Source: a virus
IMG/VR virus record: IMGVR_UViG_3300042309_002224
Coordinates: 1-36,863 of that record
Reading direction: 5' to 3' (one strand)
DNA length: 36,863 nucleotides
Shown in pieces: positions 7,753-30,956 of the stretch. The notes beneath the pieces were generated by a model that made no database searches, was not told the DNA's origin, and worked only from the letters and a program-made list of their open reading frames with translations. The position numbers and the translations under genes were made by a program. The first letter of the stretch is position 1. Each line of letters opens with the position of its first letter.

Positions 7753-10097
7753 GCGAAGCGGGCCTCGTTCACCAGCACCGCGTGCGGCGCTTCCGCGATG
7801 GCGCGCTTGGCCGCGGCATAGGCGGCATCGGCAATCGCCCTGTCGCCGTTGGCGCCGGCCAGGCTGATGCTGACATGCCGCACGCCGCCATCGGCCCCGT
7901 TCGGGATGATCTGGCCGGACCGGGTCGGGGTGAACACCTCCGGTCCCTCCTCGCCCACCACATAGCTGCGGCCGGACGCCACGGGGCCGCCATCGGCCCG
8001 GAAGCCCAGGCTGCCGATCAGGCTGACCACGCTGCTCAGGATGCCGCCCCAGCCGCCGCCACCGCCACCGAAGCCACCGCCACCGAAGCCGCCCGTCCCG
8101 CCGGCTTGACCGGGCGACAGCAAGGTGGCCAGCGTGCGCCCGAAATCCTCGGCCAGGCGCAGCAGGGACGAGAAACTGATCTTGCCGCTGGACTGCAACT
8201 CGTCCAGCACCCCGCCGACGCTGTCGGCCAGGCCGGAGAAGGCCCGCTCCGTTTCGCTGGCCGCGGCCTGGGCCGGCTTCACCATGGTGTCGCCCAGCTT
8301 CGCCATCTCGTCGCCGATCGCGGTCACCATGTCCGGCACCCAGGAATGGCCGACCACGGCGTCGTACATGTCGGCGAAGAAGCCGGTCACCATGGCCAGC
8401 TTCTCGCCGACGGCGGTGACGATTTCGCCCAGCCGGTCGACCAGCCACGTGCCGACCGCCGTGATCGTCTCGCCGACGATGCGGACGACCTCGGCCCCCC
8501 AGGCCTTCAGCGTCTCCAGGAACTGCGGCAGCAGGGTGTCGAGGAACGTCTTCGCCGTGTTCCAGCCGTTCTGCCAGACCTGCACGAAGCTGTTCACCGC
8601 GCCCGTCAGGTCGCCGCTGAACAGCTGCACCAGCATCTGCACCACCAGGCGGATATGCTCCAGGAACCCGGTGAACAGCACCTTGACCGCATCGATCGCG
8701 ACCGTCAGTCCGCCGCCCAGGCTCTGGTCGATCGCGGCCACCACGCCGGCCAGCAGCGTCACCAGCTGCGCGCCCCAGGCCCTGATCGCTTCGATGAAGG
8801 TCGGCAGGAATGCATCCATCAGGCCCTTGGCCGCTTCCCACCGGCTGGCGAAGATGGCCAGGAAGCTGTCCATCGCCCCCGCGAAATCGCCGGAGAACAG
8901 CTGGCCGATCCCCTGGATCACCAGCTTCAGGTCCTCCCACATCTGCTGGCCGATCGCCTTCACCGCCTGGACGGTCTTGGTCAGGCCGCCGCCCAGCCAC
9001 TCGTCCACCGCCCGATAAGCCTTCTCCGCCGCCTCCTTGATCTGGTCGCCATACATGATCCAGGCCGCAGCCAGTGCCGCGATGGCGGCGACGACGATGG
9101 TCACGGGGCCGCCCATCATGGCGATGGCCAAGCCCACGGCCCGGCCCGCGGCGACGATCGCCGGCACGATCTTCAGGAACCCGGCAAAGCCGGTCAGCAT
9201 GAGCCCGATCCCGGCAACGATCGGCCCGACCGCGGCCGCAACGGCCAGCGCGACGACCACGAATTTCTGGGTTTCGGGCGACAGCTGGGTGAAGGCGTCG
9301 ACCACGCCCTTCAGCCACGTCACCAGGTCTCGCACCAGCGGCAGCAGGATCTGTCCGACCTGCACCGACATCTCCTGCCACGCCGCCGCCAGGGCCCGCT
9401 GTTCGTTGGCGGCCGAATTCGACGTCCGCGCCAGGTCGCCCTGGGCGTCCTTGGTCTGCTCCATGATGATGGCCGCGCGGGCCATTATCTTGTCCTGTTC
9501 GCTCAGCTTGCCGTTGGCGTCGCCGAGCCCAAGCTCGAGGGCCTTGGCCTGCACCGCGGCCTCGCTCAGGAACACGCCGAAGGCCCGCAGCGGCTCGGCC
9601 TCGCCGACCAGGCCGGCGCGCAGCTTTTCCAGCGCGTCCGACTCGCTGACGTTGAAGAACGAAGACAGGTCGTTGGCCAGCAGCGTGAACTGCTTCGACA
9701 TGTCGGCCGCCAGCTCCGGCGTCGGCGCCGCGGCCTTGAACAGCTGGTTGAAGCTGAACGCCTGCTGCTGCAGCGACTGGGTCGACCGGCCCATGGCGTC
9801 GCCGGTCGTCCGCGCCCATTCGTTCATCTGCCCGGCCATGTCGCCGAACGAATAGTTGAAGGCGCTCTGCAGCTCCTCGGCCTCGACGGCCGCGCTGACC
9901 GCCTGCTTTCCGAACAGCACCAGCGGTGCCGTGACGGCCAGCGACATGGTGGCGCCGACCCGCTGCATGCTGTCGCCGACCTTCTCGAACCGGCCGGCAA
10001 ACTTCTGCACCTCGCGCGCCGCCTTGCCCAGGTCGTCGGCGAACTCGGCGATCGACGCCGACAGTTCCGCGCGCAGCGCGCCGATCACCGCCGCCAT
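7749..10097 (-). CDS. Tail tape measure protein
   Basis: A 782-residue protein that sets tail length and lies in the tail lumen until DNA ejection. The N-terminus (1-60) is helical and resembles the conserved tape-measure start (MQRVGATMSLAVTAPL). Residues 230-345 hold hydrophobic helices (VVVALAVAAAVGPIVAGIG, then a second near 315-347), usual for this family. Residues 368-459 and 460-551 are a tandem duplication. A Gly-rich stretch near 667-684 is followed by a C-terminal domain with the motif VVGEEGPEVFTPTRSG, which recurs at tape-measure C-termini. ATG 10097 has GGAGGG seven bases upstream. The protein is short for a siphovirus tape measure, so if the usual length rule holds the tail should be modest. 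Confidence 0.92.
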   Translation of the reverse strand: MAAVIGALRAELSASIAEFADDLGKAAREVQKFAGRFEKVGDSMQRVGATMSLAVTAPLVLFGKQAVSAAVEAEELQSAFNYSFGDMAGQMNEWARTTGDAMGRSTQSLQQQAFSFNQLFKAAAPTPELAADMSKQFTLLANDLSSFFNVSESDALEKLRAGLVGEAEPLRAFGVFLSEAAVQAKALELGLGDANGKLSEQDKIMARAAIIMEQTKDAQGDLARTSNSAANEQRALAAAWQEMSVQVGQILLPLVRDLVTWLKGVVDAFTQLSPETQKFVVVALAVAAAVGPIVAGIGLMLTGFAGFLKIVPAIVAAGRAVGLAIAMMGGPVTIVVAAIAALAAAWIMYGDQIKEAAEKAYRAVDEWLGGGLTKTVQAVKAIGQQMWEDLKLVIQGIGQLFSGDFAGAMDSFLAIFASRWEAAKGLMDAFLPTFIEAIRAWGAQLVTLLAGVVAAIDQSLGGGLTVAIDAVKVLFTGFLEHIRLVVQMLVQLFSGDLTGAVNSFVQVWQNGWNTAKTFLDTLLPQFLETLKAWGAEVVRIVGETITAVGTWLVDRLGEIVTAVGEKLAMVTGFFADMYDAVVGHSWVPDMVTAIGDEMAKLGDTMVKPAQAAASETERAFSGLADSVGGVLDELQSSGKISFSSLLRLAEDFGRTLATLLSPGQAGGTGGFGGGGFGGGGGGWGGILSSVVSLIGSLGFRADGGPVASGRSYVVGEEGPEVFTPTRSGQIIPNGADGGVRHVSISLAGANGDRAIADAAYAAAKRAIAEAPHAVLVNEARFA
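8445..8996 (-). repeat. Tandem 92-residue duplication inside the tape measure gene
   Basis: Residues 368-459 and 460-551 of the tape measure align without gaps. Both begin LGGGLT and share QLFSGD at the same offset, followed by an SF..........W..AK motif and then KAWGA or RAWGA. The DNA copies have diverged, so this is an old in-frame duplication rather than a recent repeat. Confidence 0.8.
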
Positions 10098-24490: not shown

Positions 24491-24843
24491 CGATCCTCGC
24501 GTTGTTGGAGGGCGGCGCGCTTGGCGCGGACCATCTCGAGCTTAAGATCAGCGGCAGCCTCGACCTCGAGGAGGACGACTGCAGCGCGCCGGCGGATTTC
24601 ATCGGCCTCGTGCGCCATGATGGCTGCACGGTTGCCGTACCAGAGGCGTCGGGCCTGCGTGAACGAGATGCGCAGGCGACGCGACGCCCTGCGGATGGCG
24701 CCCTTCACCGTCTCCCCGGGCTCTTCCGGGTAGGCTGCTAGGCGCACCAGCTCGCGCATCTCATCGACGATGCCGTCCGCCGCTGTCATTTCGGAGGGAC
24801 TCGGAACGGATTGTTCCGCGAGGCGGAACGAGACGGTTCGCAT
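24478..24843 (-). CDS. Hypothetical early phage protein, helical and basic
   Basis: A 121-residue protein starting MRTVSFRLAEQS, with AGGAG about ten bases before ATG 24843; the internal ATG 24789 lacks a site. The centre reads VKGAIRRASRRLRISFTQAR followed by RLWYGNRAAI, which resembles a helix-turn-helix region, then a long Ala/Glu helix (RRRAAVVLLEVEAAADLKLE). Proteins of this layout (conserved RLWYG-type motif) recur early in alphaproteobacterial prophages. A DNA-binding regulatory role is plausible from composition but not proven. It is the first clear gene of the leftward early operon after the Cro-like gene. Confidence 0.68.
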   Translation of the reverse strand: MRTVSFRLAEQSVPSPSEMTAADGIVDEMRELVRLAAYPEEPGETVKGAIRRASRRLRISFTQARRLWYGNRAAIMAHEADEIRRRAAVVLLEVEAAADLKLEMVRAKRAALQQREDRCAV

Positions 24844-25654: not shown

Positions 25655-25873
25655 TCATGCGGCGCATTTCTCACCCCGCCCCTGCTGCCGAAAGTCACTG
25701 ACCGTGACAGCGCCAGCTGTTTCATCGACGATCTTCAGCAGCGTCGGAACCGACGGCGTCTGCTTGCCTGTCTCGATCCTTGAGAGAGAGGCAGTGGAGA
25801 TGCCGATCCGCGACGCGAGCGTCTGCAGCGACAATCCCGTGGACCTGCGATATAGCCGAAGGGCGTGAGGCAT
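25655..25873 (-). CDS. Cro-like XRE-family regulator
   Basis: A 72-residue protein with one helix-turn-helix: LRLYRRSTGLSLQTLASRIG then ISTASLSRIETGKQTPSVPT, the XRE/Cro pattern with the recognition helix around ISTASLSRIE. There is no other domain. It is divergent from the CI-type gene and is the first gene behind the leftward early promoter, the usual place for Cro. ATG 25873 is preceded one codon earlier by an in-frame GTG; no strong Shine-Dalgarno is seen. It would compete for the same operators as the repressor. Confidence 0.85.
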   Translation of the reverse strand: MPHALRLYRRSTGLSLQTLASRIGISTASLSRIETGKQTPSVPTLLKIVDETAGAVTVSDFRQQGRGEKCAA

Positions 25874-25879
25874 CACTCG

Positions 25880-25907
25880 TTATTACGCCAAACGGAAATT
25901 TGCGCAA
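25880..25907 (-). promoter_or_regulatory. Leftward early promoter with embedded operator
   Basis: Reading leftward, TTGCGC (25907-25902), a 16-base spacer and TAATAA (25885-25880) form the predicted promoter of the Cro-like gene and the early operon. The spacer and -10 contain AATTTCCGTTTGGCGTAA (25900-25883), an imperfect TTACG-N5-CGKAA palindrome. Repressor binding there would block polymerase. Confidence 0.65.
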
Positions 25908-25927
25908 GAGATTTTCGGCTCGCGATA

Positions 25928-25956
25928 GCGACAAACCTTTACGTATTCCGTAAAAT
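25928..25956 (+). promoter_or_regulatory. cI promoter with palindromic operator
   Basis: A weak -35 (GCGACA, 25928-25933), a 17-base spacer and TAAAAT (25951-25956) precede the repressor ATG at 25964 by only seven bases, so the cI transcript should be leaderless, as from lambda PRM. The spacer carries the perfect palindrome TTTACG-TATTC-CGTAAA (25938-25954), which suggests autoregulation. Confidence 0.6.
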
Positions 25957-25963
25957 AGGCATC

Positions 25964-26668
25964 ATGCCAGTGCCAAATCGATCAGCAGCCGAACGTGAGC
26001 GCCACTTCATCCGCGAGTGGCGCAAATTCCGTGGCCTTACCCAGGGCCAGTTGGCCGAGATGGTCGGCACTTCAATCGCCAATATCTCTCGGATTGAAAG
26101 CGGTCAGCAGGGCTATACACAGGACATGCTTGAGGCGATCGCCCGCGCGCTTGGCGTGTCACCCGGTCTGATTATTGGCGCCCCTCCTACAGGAAGGCGA
26201 AGGCCCGGCGCCGATTCCAAATGGCCTGAAGACGCGTATTACGTCCTTCTCACCGGCTATGTGGGGGGAGGCGCAGATGTTCATTTTTGGGACCCCCGCG
26301 ACCGCCAGGGAGAAACAAGGATTGCTGTCGCGGACGCCACCCCTGACATGAAGGCACTAGCCGTGGACGGGGATGGTCTTGCGCCGACGATGCGAGACGG
26401 AGACATACTGATTTATAGTGAAAACCCGCCTGAGTACGCTAAATTATTTGGAGAAGAATGCGTTGTTGTGCTGACTGATGGGCGCGCTTTTGTAAAAACT
26501 TTAATGCCAGGGTCAGTCGACGGCCGCTTTAACTTGCTCAATGCCAATCCCGCTTGGCCGGCGATGGTCGATGTCGCAATCTCGCTTGCCATGCCGATCC
26601 TCGGGAAGCTGAGAGGCAAGTGGCGAAAGGATGATTGGTATTACCCTGGCCGTAAAACCGCTGATTGA
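25964..26668 (+). CDS. CI-type prophage repressor, S24 fold without catalytic Ser
   Basis: A 234-residue repressor. Residues ~15-65 are an XRE helix-turn-helix (LTQGQLAEMVGTSIANISRI). Residues ~90-230 are a LexA/S24-like domain, but the nucleophile motif GDSM reads GDGL (Gly138 in place of Ser) and the cleavage-site region reads VGGGAD instead of VGAGA. The lysine in GRAFVKTL (Lys178) is kept, 40 residues after the lost Ser. RecA-stimulated self-cleavage is therefore unlikely; the domain may serve only for dimerisation. The frame is open from 25865, but ATG 25964 fits the leaderless promoter. It should hold the lysogenic state by binding the operators around the gene. Confidence 0.9.
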   Translation: MPVPNRSAAERERHFIREWRKFRGLTQGQLAEMVGTSIANISRIESGQQGYTQDMLEAIARALGVSPGLIIGAPPTGRRRPGADSKWPEDAYYVLLTGYVGGGADVHFWDPRDRQGETRIAVADATPDMKALAVDGDGLAPTMRDGDILIYSENPPEYAKLFGEECVVVLTDGRAFVKTLMPGSVDGRFNLLNANPAWPAMVDVAISLAMPILGKLRGKWRKDDWYYPGRKTAD

Positions 26669-26693
26669 CGATAATTTCCGTTTGGCGTAAATT
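26665..26693 (+). promoter_or_regulatory. Second rightward promoter with duplicated operator
   Basis: TTGACG (26665-26670), a 17-base spacer and TAAATT (26688-26693) form a good promoter for the rightward arm. The spacer contains AATTTCCGTTTGGCGTAA (26673-26690), identical over 18 bases to the reverse complement of 25883-25900. The 57 bases to the next start hold GTCAGC/GCTGAC and GCCC/GGGC small hairpins. Confidence 0.7.
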
Positions 26694-26750
26694 CTTTCTC
26701 GTCAGCCATCGCTGACCGCCCTGCGGGGCGCCCACCTGGGGAGGTAAGAA

Positions 26751-27476
26751 ATGTCATTCGGCGCAATCGCCATCCACCCGAGCAGCTTCACCCTTGACGC
26801 CACTGACGGCGGCGCCGCTATCGCCGGCGCCCTCGTGCGCAGCTGGCGCGAGGGCGGCGCGGCCGCCGATCCGTTCCTCGCCGCGCACGCAGCATGGAAG
26901 GCCGCCTCGGAAGTCCACACGGCCGCTGAGAGCCGCATGAGCGAACGCGAAGAGGCGGCGGTAGCAAAGTATGGCATCGATGCGCTGTGGGCCAAGGTCC
27001 AGATCGGTATCAACCGGTCCAACGGCGAGCCGCGGTTCGCATTTTCCGATGATCAGATCGACGCACTGATCGCGGACCGGATCAAGGGCTTCCAAGCTGT
27101 GGCGTCGAAAGGCGGCACCGTCGTCTCCACCGAGAATGGCCTCGTCCCGCTAGCGGACGTCATTCAGCGCCTGCACGCCAAGGGCGAAAAGATGCGGGCC
27201 GAGCTCAAGGCCGACGAGCAGCGAGTCGCGGCCCTTCGAGCAGAGTTCGGCATCGACGTGGAGAGCGCCGCGGTCAAACAAGCAACGGACGCACTGGGGA
27301 TCGCGGAGGGCGCCCTCTATGCCTGCCCGGCGACCACGCCGGCGGGTATCGCCCTGAAGCTGGCCACGCTGGCCGAGTGCTTCGGCTGGGCTGAGGGGGA
27401 AGTCGCTCCCGATTTCGAGCGCTCCGCCTTCGCCGGCATCCTCGCCGACCTGCAGCGCTTGGGAGGGCGGAACTGA
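26751..27476 (+). CDS. Hypothetical protein, first gene of the rightward arm
   Basis: A 241-residue protein starting MSFGAIAIHPSSFTLDA, with a strong GGGGAGG site. It is mostly helical; a likely coiled coil lies around 120-160 (DVIQRLHAKGEKMRAELKAD), and the N-terminal part has WKAASEVHTAAESRMSERE. No family is recognised. It overlaps the next gene by one base (TGATG). Being the first gene behind the repressor-controlled promoter, it is probably made early after induction or infection. Confidence 0.72.
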   Translation: MSFGAIAIHPSSFTLDATDGGAAIAGALVRSWREGGAAADPFLAAHAAWKAASEVHTAAESRMSEREEAAVAKYGIDALWAKVQIGINRSNGEPRFAFSDDQIDALIADRIKGFQAVASKGGTVVSTENGLVPLADVIQRLHAKGEKMRAELKADEQRVAALRAEFGIDVESAAVKQATDALGIAEGALYACPATTPAGIALKLATLAECFGWAEGEVAPDFERSAFAGILADLQRLGGRN

Positions 27477-28757: not shown

Positions 28758-29234
28758 ATGAGCGAGATCGAGAACCTATCGCCCGACTGGATCCGAGACG
28801 TGCTATCGCGCGTCCGGAAAGCCAACACCGATCGCGCTGATGTGGCGCCGCACCACAGATTCGGCAACGTCGTAGCGCTATGTCCCTTCCACGAGGAGCG
28901 GACGCCCAGCTTTTTGGTCAATGGCGTTACCGGCGCCTATCACTGCCTCAGCTGCGGCATCAGGGGCAGCATGGAGGTCCTGGCGAAGGCCGCCGGCGTG
29001 CCCATGCCTGCCGGCTTCTCGCGCAAGCGTGTGATGACCAACTTCCGCTTCGGCGAAATCGTCGGCGCGATGGCGAATGCGCTCCACGCGTACTCGGCAG
29101 AGGAGCGGGCGGAGTTGCTGGAGCGCTGGCATGAAGCAGGGCGCGCGCTGCCGGTCGCGATCGACATTGTCGCCGAGGTGCGGGCAGGCATCGGCTATTC
29201 CGGCAGATCCATCCCCAGGGCCGGCCGCGCCTAA
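28758..29234 (+). CDS. Stand-alone CHC2 zinc-finger protein (DnaG N-terminal-like)
   Basis: A 158-residue protein. Residues 42-66 form the primase zinc ribbon: CPFHEERTPSF then YHCLSCGIRG, i.e. C42-x2-H45-x17-C63-x2-C66. The N-terminus (LSPDWIRDVLSRV) resembles the DnaG start. After the finger there is only a ~90-residue helical tail (NFRFGEIVGAMANALHAYSA); the TOPRIM polymerase and helicase-binding domains of DnaG are absent. It may recognise priming sites for a host primase, or act as a regulator using the finger. AGGAG lies about eleven bases before ATG 28758. It follows the terminator directly. Confidence 0.85.
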   Translation: MSEIENLSPDWIRDVLSRVRKANTDRADVAPHHRFGNVVALCPFHEERTPSFLVNGVTGAYHCLSCGIRGSMEVLAKAAGVPMPAGFSRKRVMTNFRFGEIVGAMANALHAYSAEERAELLERWHEAGRALPVAIDIVAEVRAGIGYSGRSIPRAGRA

Positions 29235-29266
29235 TGTCGCGAGGACACTTCTATCGAGGATGAGCG

Positions 29267-29455
29267 ATGAGCGTCATCGACTTCGAGGCTCGACGGATCG
29301 CTCGCCGGTACGAGCGCATGGCCGAGGCGATCGAGCGCGGCGACGCGCCCGTGCTGCAGAGTGGGCTTCTCGACCGGAACGAGAGCAGGGAAATAGCGGC
29401 CGCCTTCCGCGAGATCGCGGAGCTCGTCCGCGGCACGGGCCCGGAGGATCGATGA
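29267..29455 (+). CDS. Small hypothetical protein
   Basis: A 62-residue charged helical protein starting MSVIDFEARRIARRYERMA, with a GAGGATGAG site. Its TGA overlaps the next start (ATGA). No family is recognised. Predicted as two helices joined near the Gly-Asp of IERGDAP. Coupling to the putative excisionase suggests co-expression with the recombination genes. Confidence 0.62.
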   Translation: MSVIDFEARRIARRYERMAEAIERGDAPVLQSGLLDRNESREIAAAFREIAELVRGTGPEDR

Positions 29456-29727
29456 GCGAAAGGCGCAAGCCCCGCCCGACCGTGACGCCGCGGATCTGGA
29501 CAGAGGAGCAGGTCGCCTGGCGGCTCGGCATGTCCGTCGAGACGATGCGCCGGCGGATGGCTGAGCTGAAGCGGCAGGGCATGCCCGAGCCCGATCCCCT
29601 CTTCCTGGACCGCTGGGACATCAACGCCGTCGAGCATTGGCTCGACGTGCGCGCCGGCCTGGCCCCCGTCGCCGGCGCCGTCCAGGCCAGCGACTACGAG
29701 CGCGCCCTGCAGAATGGCGAAATTTGA
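29452..29727 (+). CDS. Putative excisionase / winged-helix DNA-binding protein
   Basis: A 91-residue basic protein. Residues ~15-45 (RIWTEEQVAWRLGMSVETM, then RRRMAELKRQGMPEPDP) form a MerR/excisionase-type helix-turn-helix, and the rest has FLDRWDINAVEHWLDV, a common ending of small recombination directionality factors. The gene overlaps the integrase start by 14 bases and is itself coupled to the upstream small gene. Position and fold make it the best excisionase candidate. It could instead be a regulator of integrase expression. Confidence 0.72.
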   Translation: MSERRKPRPTVTPRIWTEEQVAWRLGMSVETMRRRMAELKRQGMPEPDPLFLDRWDINAVEHWLDVRAGLAPVAGAVQASDYERALQNGEI

Positions 29728-30859
29728 GGTCCGCCACCTGCGGATCCGCGGCGGCCGCTGCTTCTTCCAACCCTCGAAGTCCATGCGCGGCGCCGGCTTC
29801 CTCCCGCAGCCGCTCGGCGACGACGAGGTCGAGGCGGCACGGATCGTCAAGGCGCTCAACGAGGATTGGGACCGGTTGCAGGCGGAGCGGAAACAGGCGC
29901 GTCGCACCGGCCGGCCCGACCCCGCGGGCAAGACGCCCCCTGCCCCGCGCGGCACGTTCGAATGGCTGATCCAGGAACACAAGAAGGCTGACGCCTGGAA
30001 GAAGCGGCCGAAGAAGACCAAGGCCGAGTTCGACTACTACACCGGCCTGCTCGTTCAGACCCGGAAGCAGCAGGCGGCCACGCTGCAGCGCCCGCACATT
30101 CGGCAGCTGGTCCAGAACATGCGCGAGCAGGGCTTCAGCCAGGACAAGGCCAACCGCGTGGTGAAATGGCTGCGATTCCTGCTGTCCGAGGCGATCGAGC
30201 ATGGGCTGCGGAAGGACAACCCGGCGTTCAACCTGAAGCTGTCGAAGGGCAAGCCGCGCCAGGTCGTGTGGTCGGAGGAAGAGGTCTGGCAACTCGTGAA
30301 GAAGGCGATCGAGATGGGGCGCGCTTCGATCGCGCTGGCCGTCCTGGTCGCCTTCGACATGGGGCAGCGCCGCGGCGACATCCTCGGCATGACCTGGGGC
30401 CGCTGGGACGGCGAGCGCCTGCTGGTCCATCAGAGCAAGACGCAGACGCTCGTTTCGGTGAAGGCGCTCCCGGAGCTGCGCGATGCCATCGAGATGACCA
30501 GGGACGCGGACGAGGTCTACCGGATGACCAACGACCCGGAGCTGCGAGACGCCCGGGCGATGGTGATCAGCGAAGAGACGGGTCGGCCCTACAAGGGCGA
30601 CAACTTCAGCCACCTGTTCCGCGAGATCGCCGACGCCGCCGGCTTCAAGACCAAGCAGTTCATCGACCTGCGCCGCAGCTCGGTCGTCCGGCTGTCGCTG
30701 GCCGGCTGCACGCCGCAGCTGATCAGCGCCATCACGGGCCACAGCATCGAGTCGGTGGTCCGGATCCTGCGCGTCTACAACCCGACCACGAAGGAACAGT
30801 CCGACCGGGCGATCACGATGCTCCAGGCCTGGCGCGAGCGTCAGAAGTTGGAAAGCTAA
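29714..30859 (+). CDS. int: Tyrosine-recombinase integrase
   Basis: A 381-residue phage integrase. The N-terminal arm-binding part (1-~80) is basic, the core-binding domain spans ~80-170, and the catalytic domain ~180-381. Catalytic residues seen: Arg219 in GQRRGDIL, Lys242 in SKTQT, Arg320 in FIDLRRSS, His343 in ITGHS and Tyr355 in RVYNP. The first His of the HxLR box is Ile here, a variation that is tolerated in this class. The gene ends 20 bases before the tRNA-Arg 3' end, so this tRNA is the attachment target. ATG 29714 overlaps the excisionase gene. A downstream promoter was not identified. Confidence 0.94.
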   Translation: MAKFEVRHLRIRGGRCFFQPSKSMRGAGFLPQPLGDDEVEAARIVKALNEDWDRLQAERKQARRTGRPDPAGKTPPAPRGTFEWLIQEHKKADAWKKRPKKTKAEFDYYTGLLVQTRKQQAATLQRPHIRQLVQNMREQGFSQDKANRVVKWLRFLLSEAIEHGLRKDNPAFNLKLSKGKPRQVVWSEEEVWQLVKKAIEMGRASIALAVLVAFDMGQRRGDILGMTWGRWDGERLLVHQSKTQTLVSVKALPELRDAIEMTRDADEVYRMTNDPELRDARAMVISEETGRPYKGDNFSHLFREIADAAGFKTKQFIDLRRSSVVRLSLAGCTPQLISAITGHSIESVVRILRVYNPTTKEQSDRAITMLQAWRERQKLES

Positions 30860-30882
30860 AAAGCAACCAGTTGGAAAACTGG
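30857..30882 (-). terminator. tRNA-Arg terminator overlapping CCA and int stop
   Basis: On the minus strand CCAGTT (30882-30877) pairs with AACTGG (30872-30867) over TTCC and is followed by TTGCTTTTTA. The stem starts with the encoded CCA end of the tRNA, and the T-run overlaps the integrase stop codon, so the terminator is at least partly phage-derived DNA. Confidence 0.6.
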
Positions 30883-30925
30883 CGACCCCGGCTGGACTCG
30901 AACCAGCGACCGTCCGCTTAGAAGG
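30880..30925. other. Inferred right attachment site (attR) in tRNA-Arg 3' half
   Basis: Integrases of this class recombine in the T-arm or anticodon-arm part of a tRNA 3' half. Integrase adjacency and orientation place the phage/host junction here. The other copy of the core lies outside the window, so the exact core cannot be defined; the limits given are the 3' half of the tRNA. Confidence 0.5.
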
Positions 30926-30956
30926 CGGGTGCTCTATCCGGCTGAGCTACGGGGCC
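30880..30956 (-). tRNA. tRNA-Arg (anticodon TCT)
   Basis: A cloverleaf with acceptor GGCCCCG/CGGGGTC, D-arm GCTC..GAGC, anticodon loop CTTCTAA (anticodon TCT, decoding AGA), T-loop GGTTCGAGTCC and an encoded CCA. The anticodon stem has one C-A mismatch at its outer pair. Its 3' end faces the integrase, so the prophage is inserted at this 3' end. The gene is whole, so the attachment core must have restored it. AGA is rare in GC-rich genomes, but this prophage uses AGA several times in its AT-richer genes. Confidence 0.95.

Follow-up and report, generated by a model that had tools for sequence, protein, structure and literature searches.

We analysed a 36.9-kb virus sequence (the window) in which a cI repressor gene lies between two sets of genes transcribed in opposite directions, and asked whether a single repressor could silence both. 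The cI gene and a Cro-like gene are divergent, with candidate operators in between. The leftward arm runs from the Cro-like gene through a DnaB-like helicase and a replisome-organiser-like gene to terminase, portal, head and tail genes, while the rightward arm leads to an integrase. The genes around the switch and along the rightward arm are the following:

25655-25873, minus strand: Cro-like HTH gene (HTH_3/HTH_31 matches), first gene of the leftward arm
25964-26668, plus strand: cI repressor gene (234 aa), with N-terminal HTH and S24-like C-terminal domain
26751-27476, plus strand: gene opening the rightward arm; its 241-aa product matched no family and is conserved in the relative L003 described below
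28758-29234, plus strand: protein with a DnaG-type zinc-binding domain by domain match, called a zinc finger in the first-pass annotation
29077-29727, plus strand: excisionase-like or DNA-binding protein, weak match to phrog_66 and phrog_597
29714-30859, plus strand: tyrosine integrase at the end of the rightward arm, adjoining tRNA-Arg at 30880-30956

The tRNA-Arg(TCT) starts 20 bp past the integrase end (30859-30956) and is probably the attachment site. Beyond it we noticed a tRNA-Pro and a DEAD-box helicase, in DNA that has a host-like appearance.

The first-pass annotation had reported one 18-bp site on both flanks of cI and a third, related palindrome in the cI promoter, all fitting TTACG-N5-CGKAA. 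These observations were borne out. AATTTCCGTTTGGCGTAA occupies 26673-26690 on the plus strand and its exact reverse complement 25883-25900 on the minus strand, and no exact inverted repeat in the immunity region is longer. Allowing up to three mismatches added no further match anywhere in the 36.9 kb, the shuffled expectation being 0.00. The third site, TTTACGTATTCCGTAAA, is a 17-bp perfect palindrome in the spacer of the predicted cI promoter, and it fits the motif as claimed. The count of three proved too low, as a motif scan revealed a fourth match, TTACCCTGGCCGTAA, with one mismatch to the motif and located inside the 3' end of cI. Both flanks of cI carry one common dyad-symmetric operator type:

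25883-25900, minus strand: candidate operator 1, inside the leftward promoter, exact inverted partner of 26673-26690
25938-25954, plus strand: candidate operator 2, the 17-bp palindrome in the cI-promoter spacer, in an oR3-like position suited to autoregulation
26641-26655, plus strand: candidate operator 3, in the cI 3' end, 35 bp upstream of operator 4
26673-26690, plus strand: candidate operator 4, inside the rightward promoter, second copy of the 18-bp repeat

Candidate operators 3 and 4 form a second cluster downstream of cI, set at a promoter that runs parallel to cI and faces the integrase arm. Operator 3 is credible because relatives repeat a downstream spacing of 33-35 bp. A further palindrome resembling the operator motif, TTCCGCGAGGCGGAA, was seen at 24814-24828 in the leftward arm just past cro, and may be there by chance.

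The first-pass annotation had also placed each copy of the repeat between a -35 and a -10 element. A promoter scan returned only two promoter-like matches in 1.2 kb, TTGACG-17-TAAATT and GCGACA-17-TAAAAT; the former encloses the right-hand copy, for which the claim holds. The promoters considered here are:

25880-25907, minus strand: predicted leftward early promoter (PR-like), -35 TTGCGC at 25902-25907, 16-bp spacer, -10 TAATAA at 25880-25885
25928-25956, plus strand: predicted cI promoter, GCGACA-17-TAAAAT
26665-26693, plus strand: predicted rightward early promoter (PL-like), TTGACG at 26665-26670, 17-bp spacer, TAAATT at 26688-26693

The -35 of the rightward promoter overlaps the cI stop codon, and operator 4 fills its spacer and the first half of its -10. 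The leftward promoter was missed by the scan, and TTGCGC-16-TAATAA is poor compared with the consensus. On this side the claim leans on homology, in that relatives suggest a promoter here: TTGACA or TTGACG occupies the equivalent place in most of them. A gap of 7 bp separates the -10 of the cI promoter from the ATG, and no clear ribosome-binding site was seen; the cI mRNA is thus probably leaderless or nearly so. The lambda PRM message is likewise leaderless.

Relatives were obtained only by a genome scan, tblastn of phage and plasmid records, and alignment-based scans; scans of IMG/VR with single proteins (CI, integrase and DnaB) were empty, and blastn against phages gave no matches. The genome scan yielded one close CI relative (47% identity) in L003, a prophage of Inquilinus limosus (NZ_NHON01000013). 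There, Cro is 92% identical to that of the window and occupies the same place, and the first right-arm protein is 45% identical. L003 shares three strong sites and the rightward promoter with the window, and its own versions are as follows: TTGCGCCAAACGGAA in the cro promoter, near-identical to operator 1 and in the same place; TTTACGCATTCCGTAAA in the cI promoter, the counterpart of operator 2; and TTACGTTTAACGTAA within TTGACC-18-TAAATT downstream, the counterpart of operator 4. Unlike in the window, the right operator TTACGTTTAACGTAA lies 147 bp after the cI stop. It is the one strong downstream site, and the flanking sites match at 12/15 positions without being identical. The integrase-sized protein of L003 was unrelated to the window integrase by BLAST.

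Alignment-based IMG/VR scans added L009-L013 and L025, and the phage and plasmid records added the Rhizobium phages RHph_I1_23 and RHph_N2, the Sinorhizobium phage PBC5 and a Devosia plasmid. The HTH-only repressor phages among these (L009-L012, L025, PBC5, RHph_I1_23 and the Devosia plasmid) share a homologous DNA-binding domain and flanking operator pairs, which are weaker in PBC5 and L025 than in the others. They differ from the window in having no S24 domain, and several have genes between cI and the right-hand operators. Such genes follow the short HTH-only cI in L009 (6280-6730), L010 (6277-6740) and L012 (6343-6585), where lambda has rexAB; the encoded protein starts like a lipoprotein in L010 and like an exported protein in L012. 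We consider these three loci to hold candidate lysogen-expressed exclusion genes.

A class-wide search brought in more distant S24 repressors, L036-L042. L036 (read as reverse complement), which has an intact GDSM, carries the palindromes TTGCATTATGTGCAA and TTGCAATACGCGCAA at 1408 and 1466, 58 bp apart upstream of the repressor gene, with no copy downstream, that is, the upstream half of the layout alone. L040 has a flanking pair matching at 13/15, and L037, L038, L039, L041 and L042 showed nothing convincing.

Among the relatives, the flanking dyads differ between loci but tend to match across cI within each locus. L010 has an exact 18-bp flanking pair, GTTACGGTAGACGCAACT, and pairs matching at 15/16 but of other sequences were found in L012 (TTACACTAGTTGCAAG), L030 (TGAAATTCAGTCAAG), L033 (TTAGCACCACTAATAT) and L009. 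To score this, we compared every upstream region with every downstream region and took the best inverted 15-mer match. Same-locus matches exceeded cross-locus matches to a degree that none of 100,000 permutations reached. Taken individually, five of the 11 loci were clearly above shuffles (window, L009, L010, L030 and L033), L012 was borderline, and the other five (L003, L011, L025, L031 and L032) were not above shuffles.

The dyads also follow the repressor. A motif scan of relatives placed clusters of the form TTVC-N7-GBAA at both cI flanks in six loci whose CI has an SRIE-type recognition helix (window, L003, L009, L010, L012 and L025), while L011, with a TRLE helix, has a variant dyad. SRIE-type CIs go with TTRC half-sites, and SQLE-type CIs with other, unrelated dyads. 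The positions of the sites are conserved as well as their type. Upstream pairs are 56-60 bp apart in the window, L003, L010, L012 and L025, and downstream pairs 33-35 bp apart in seven loci (window, L009, L010, L011, L012, L025 and L033), L011 and L033 being counted with their own dyads. In L003, L009, L010, L011 and L012 the downstream sites lie in TTGACN promoters that point away from cI. The sites can be seen directly in these DNAs, as can their placement, conserved positions and covariation within loci.

A GC-rich hairpin would open the rightward transcript in several loci (window 26696-26745, L009 6791-6818, L010 6797-6824). Its z-score was -3.6 in L010 and -2.7 in L009, while the same test was not significant in L011 or L012 and weak in the window and L003. 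We dropped the idea of a conserved RNA leader after the rightward promoter, since the signal was strong in L010 and L009 only.

These results support the proposal of the first-pass annotation that one repressor acts at both flanks, given that the dyads covary between phages yet match within each, and that they lie in the predicted divergent early promoters as well as in that of cI. We consider it highly probable (about 0.9) that the window holds the immunity region of a temperate tailed prophage built on the plan of lambda and 16-3, with one CI silencing both arms; the host is probably an alphaproteobacterium. CI would be expressed from its own promoter, where the operator would make it autoregulatory. 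CI dimers would occupy dyads of about 15-17 bp in two clusters, the upstream one comprising the sites in the cro and cI promoters and the downstream one those in the cI 3' end and the integrase-arm promoter. Operators between -35 and -10 would exclude RNA polymerase, so that a single protein would shut both the leftward arm (cro, replication and structural genes) and the rightward arm (unknown genes, primase-like, xis-like and int). CI binding and promoter activity are what we infer from the DNA sequence, and any cooperation or looping across the approximately 0.7 kb between the clusters would likewise be deduced from it.

The repeat could in principle have arisen by chance or serve a non-regulatory role, for instance as a recombination or replication element. 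With no copies expected in shuffled sequence, placement in promoters, and both positional conservation and covariation in relatives, this can be practically dismissed. A more serious challenge comes from Cro, because Cro binding to the same sites would produce the same covariation, which counts against the CI reading. The flanking dyads might then be mainly Cro sites, or sites shared by Cro and CI, with a late lytic turn-down of both early promoters as their main role. The Cro-like HTH gene adjoins the candidate operators, its product is 92% identical between L003 and the window, and lambda Cro and CI do use common operators. One operator, however, sits in the cI promoter at a conserved position, and operator type tracks the CI recognition helix; sharing between the two proteins is also compatible with use by CI. 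We therefore regard a mainly Cro-directed role as improbable.

It is also conceivable on paper that the rightward arm stays unrepressed in the lysogen and int is expressed, operator 4 being a weak site for looping or for tuning cI. Distant operators that tune a promoter are known, as lambda oL contributes to PRM repression via looping (PMC3708714). In the window, however, operator 4 extends across the spacer and into the -10 of one of the best-scoring promoters in the region. Relatives show this placement too, as does 16-3, whose OL2 sits between the -35 and -10 of PL. An unrepressed rightward arm thus appears very improbable, and we retain repression of both arms by CI as the preferred reading.

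The first-pass annotation had further described the position of the rightward promoter, downstream of cI, as unlike the lambda layout. This was wrong. On the minus strand of the lambda record (NC_001416), the transcriptional order is cI, rexA, rexB, oL1-3 and N, and oR3-oR1 and cro flank cI on its opposite side. Lambda PL is therefore likewise downstream of and parallel to cI, and the claimed contrast fails. Our inverted-pair script, run on lambda as a positive control, recovered oR1/oL1 as an inverted pair matching at 14/15. Both systems have oR and PR-cro (or their counterparts) on one side and oL and PL on the other, and in each the two clusters share an operator family in inverted orientation. 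Lambda differs from the window in having rexAB between cI and oL, three sites per cluster and clusters 2.3 kb apart rather than 0.7 kb, and in its repressor: lambda CI cleaves itself, whereas the window CI is without the catalytic Ser.

The immC region of Rhizobium phage 16-3 (NC_011103) is nearer to the window than lambda. Here, OR1/OR2 lie in Pc/Pr upstream of the c repressor gene and OL1/OL2 in PL directly after the repressor stop, PL faces xis-int and there is no rex-like gene between. It differs in its ACAA...TTGT operator types and in OL sites 17 bp apart (35 in the window). A comparison with the 16-3 C repressor gave no full-length homology (E about 0.001, 25-36% over short stretches). 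With the repressors nearly unrelated in sequence, the two phages share a plan and not a repressor family. The layout is the textbook one of lambda and 16-3, and the novelty claimed for it is absent.

What the locus does offer is a low-cost way of finding operators from sequence, by looking for a dyad upstream of a repressor gene that recurs inverted downstream. It provided candidate operators for several alphaproteobacterial phages whose records have no annotated binding sites. A study of Sinorhizobium prophages found no operators by matching to those of lambda or 16-3 (PMC12429752). When run with 14-mers, our script failed to pick up the operators of 16-3, which are short (12-14 bp) and variable, so such systems are missed by the inverted-pair method.

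The repressor itself suggests how this switch may depart from lambda. CI matched both PF01381 (HTH) and PF00717 (S24-like) above cut-off, and the catalytic Ser of the S24 domain is replaced, with GDG for GDS (26363-26402, CI residues about 134-146). In the L003 CI (8405-8450), GGT replaces GDS and the Ser column holds T where the window has G. Lys178 is retained in CI and the Ser of the GDSM motif is absent, leaving the Ser and Lys pair of self-cleaving repressors incomplete. As the catalytic Ser is replaced in both the window and L003, self-cleavage is not expected. From its sequence, CI is probably not RecA-cleavable, and an anti-repressor may be required for induction. None of the IMG/VR, Rhizobium, Sinorhizobium and Devosia relatives has the S24 domain. 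We tentatively suggest, as a possibility that we hold to be somewhat doubtful, that some alphaproteobacterial phages form a group in which a two-cluster switch of the lambda style is retained, the upstream sites being 56-60 bp and the downstream ones 33-35 bp apart, but the repressors have lost either self-cleavage or the whole C-terminal domain. In lambda, that domain gives CI its cooperativity. If the suggestion is true, induction and any long-range cooperation in these phages would need another route, be it through an anti-repressor or a partner protein, or by doing without a loop.
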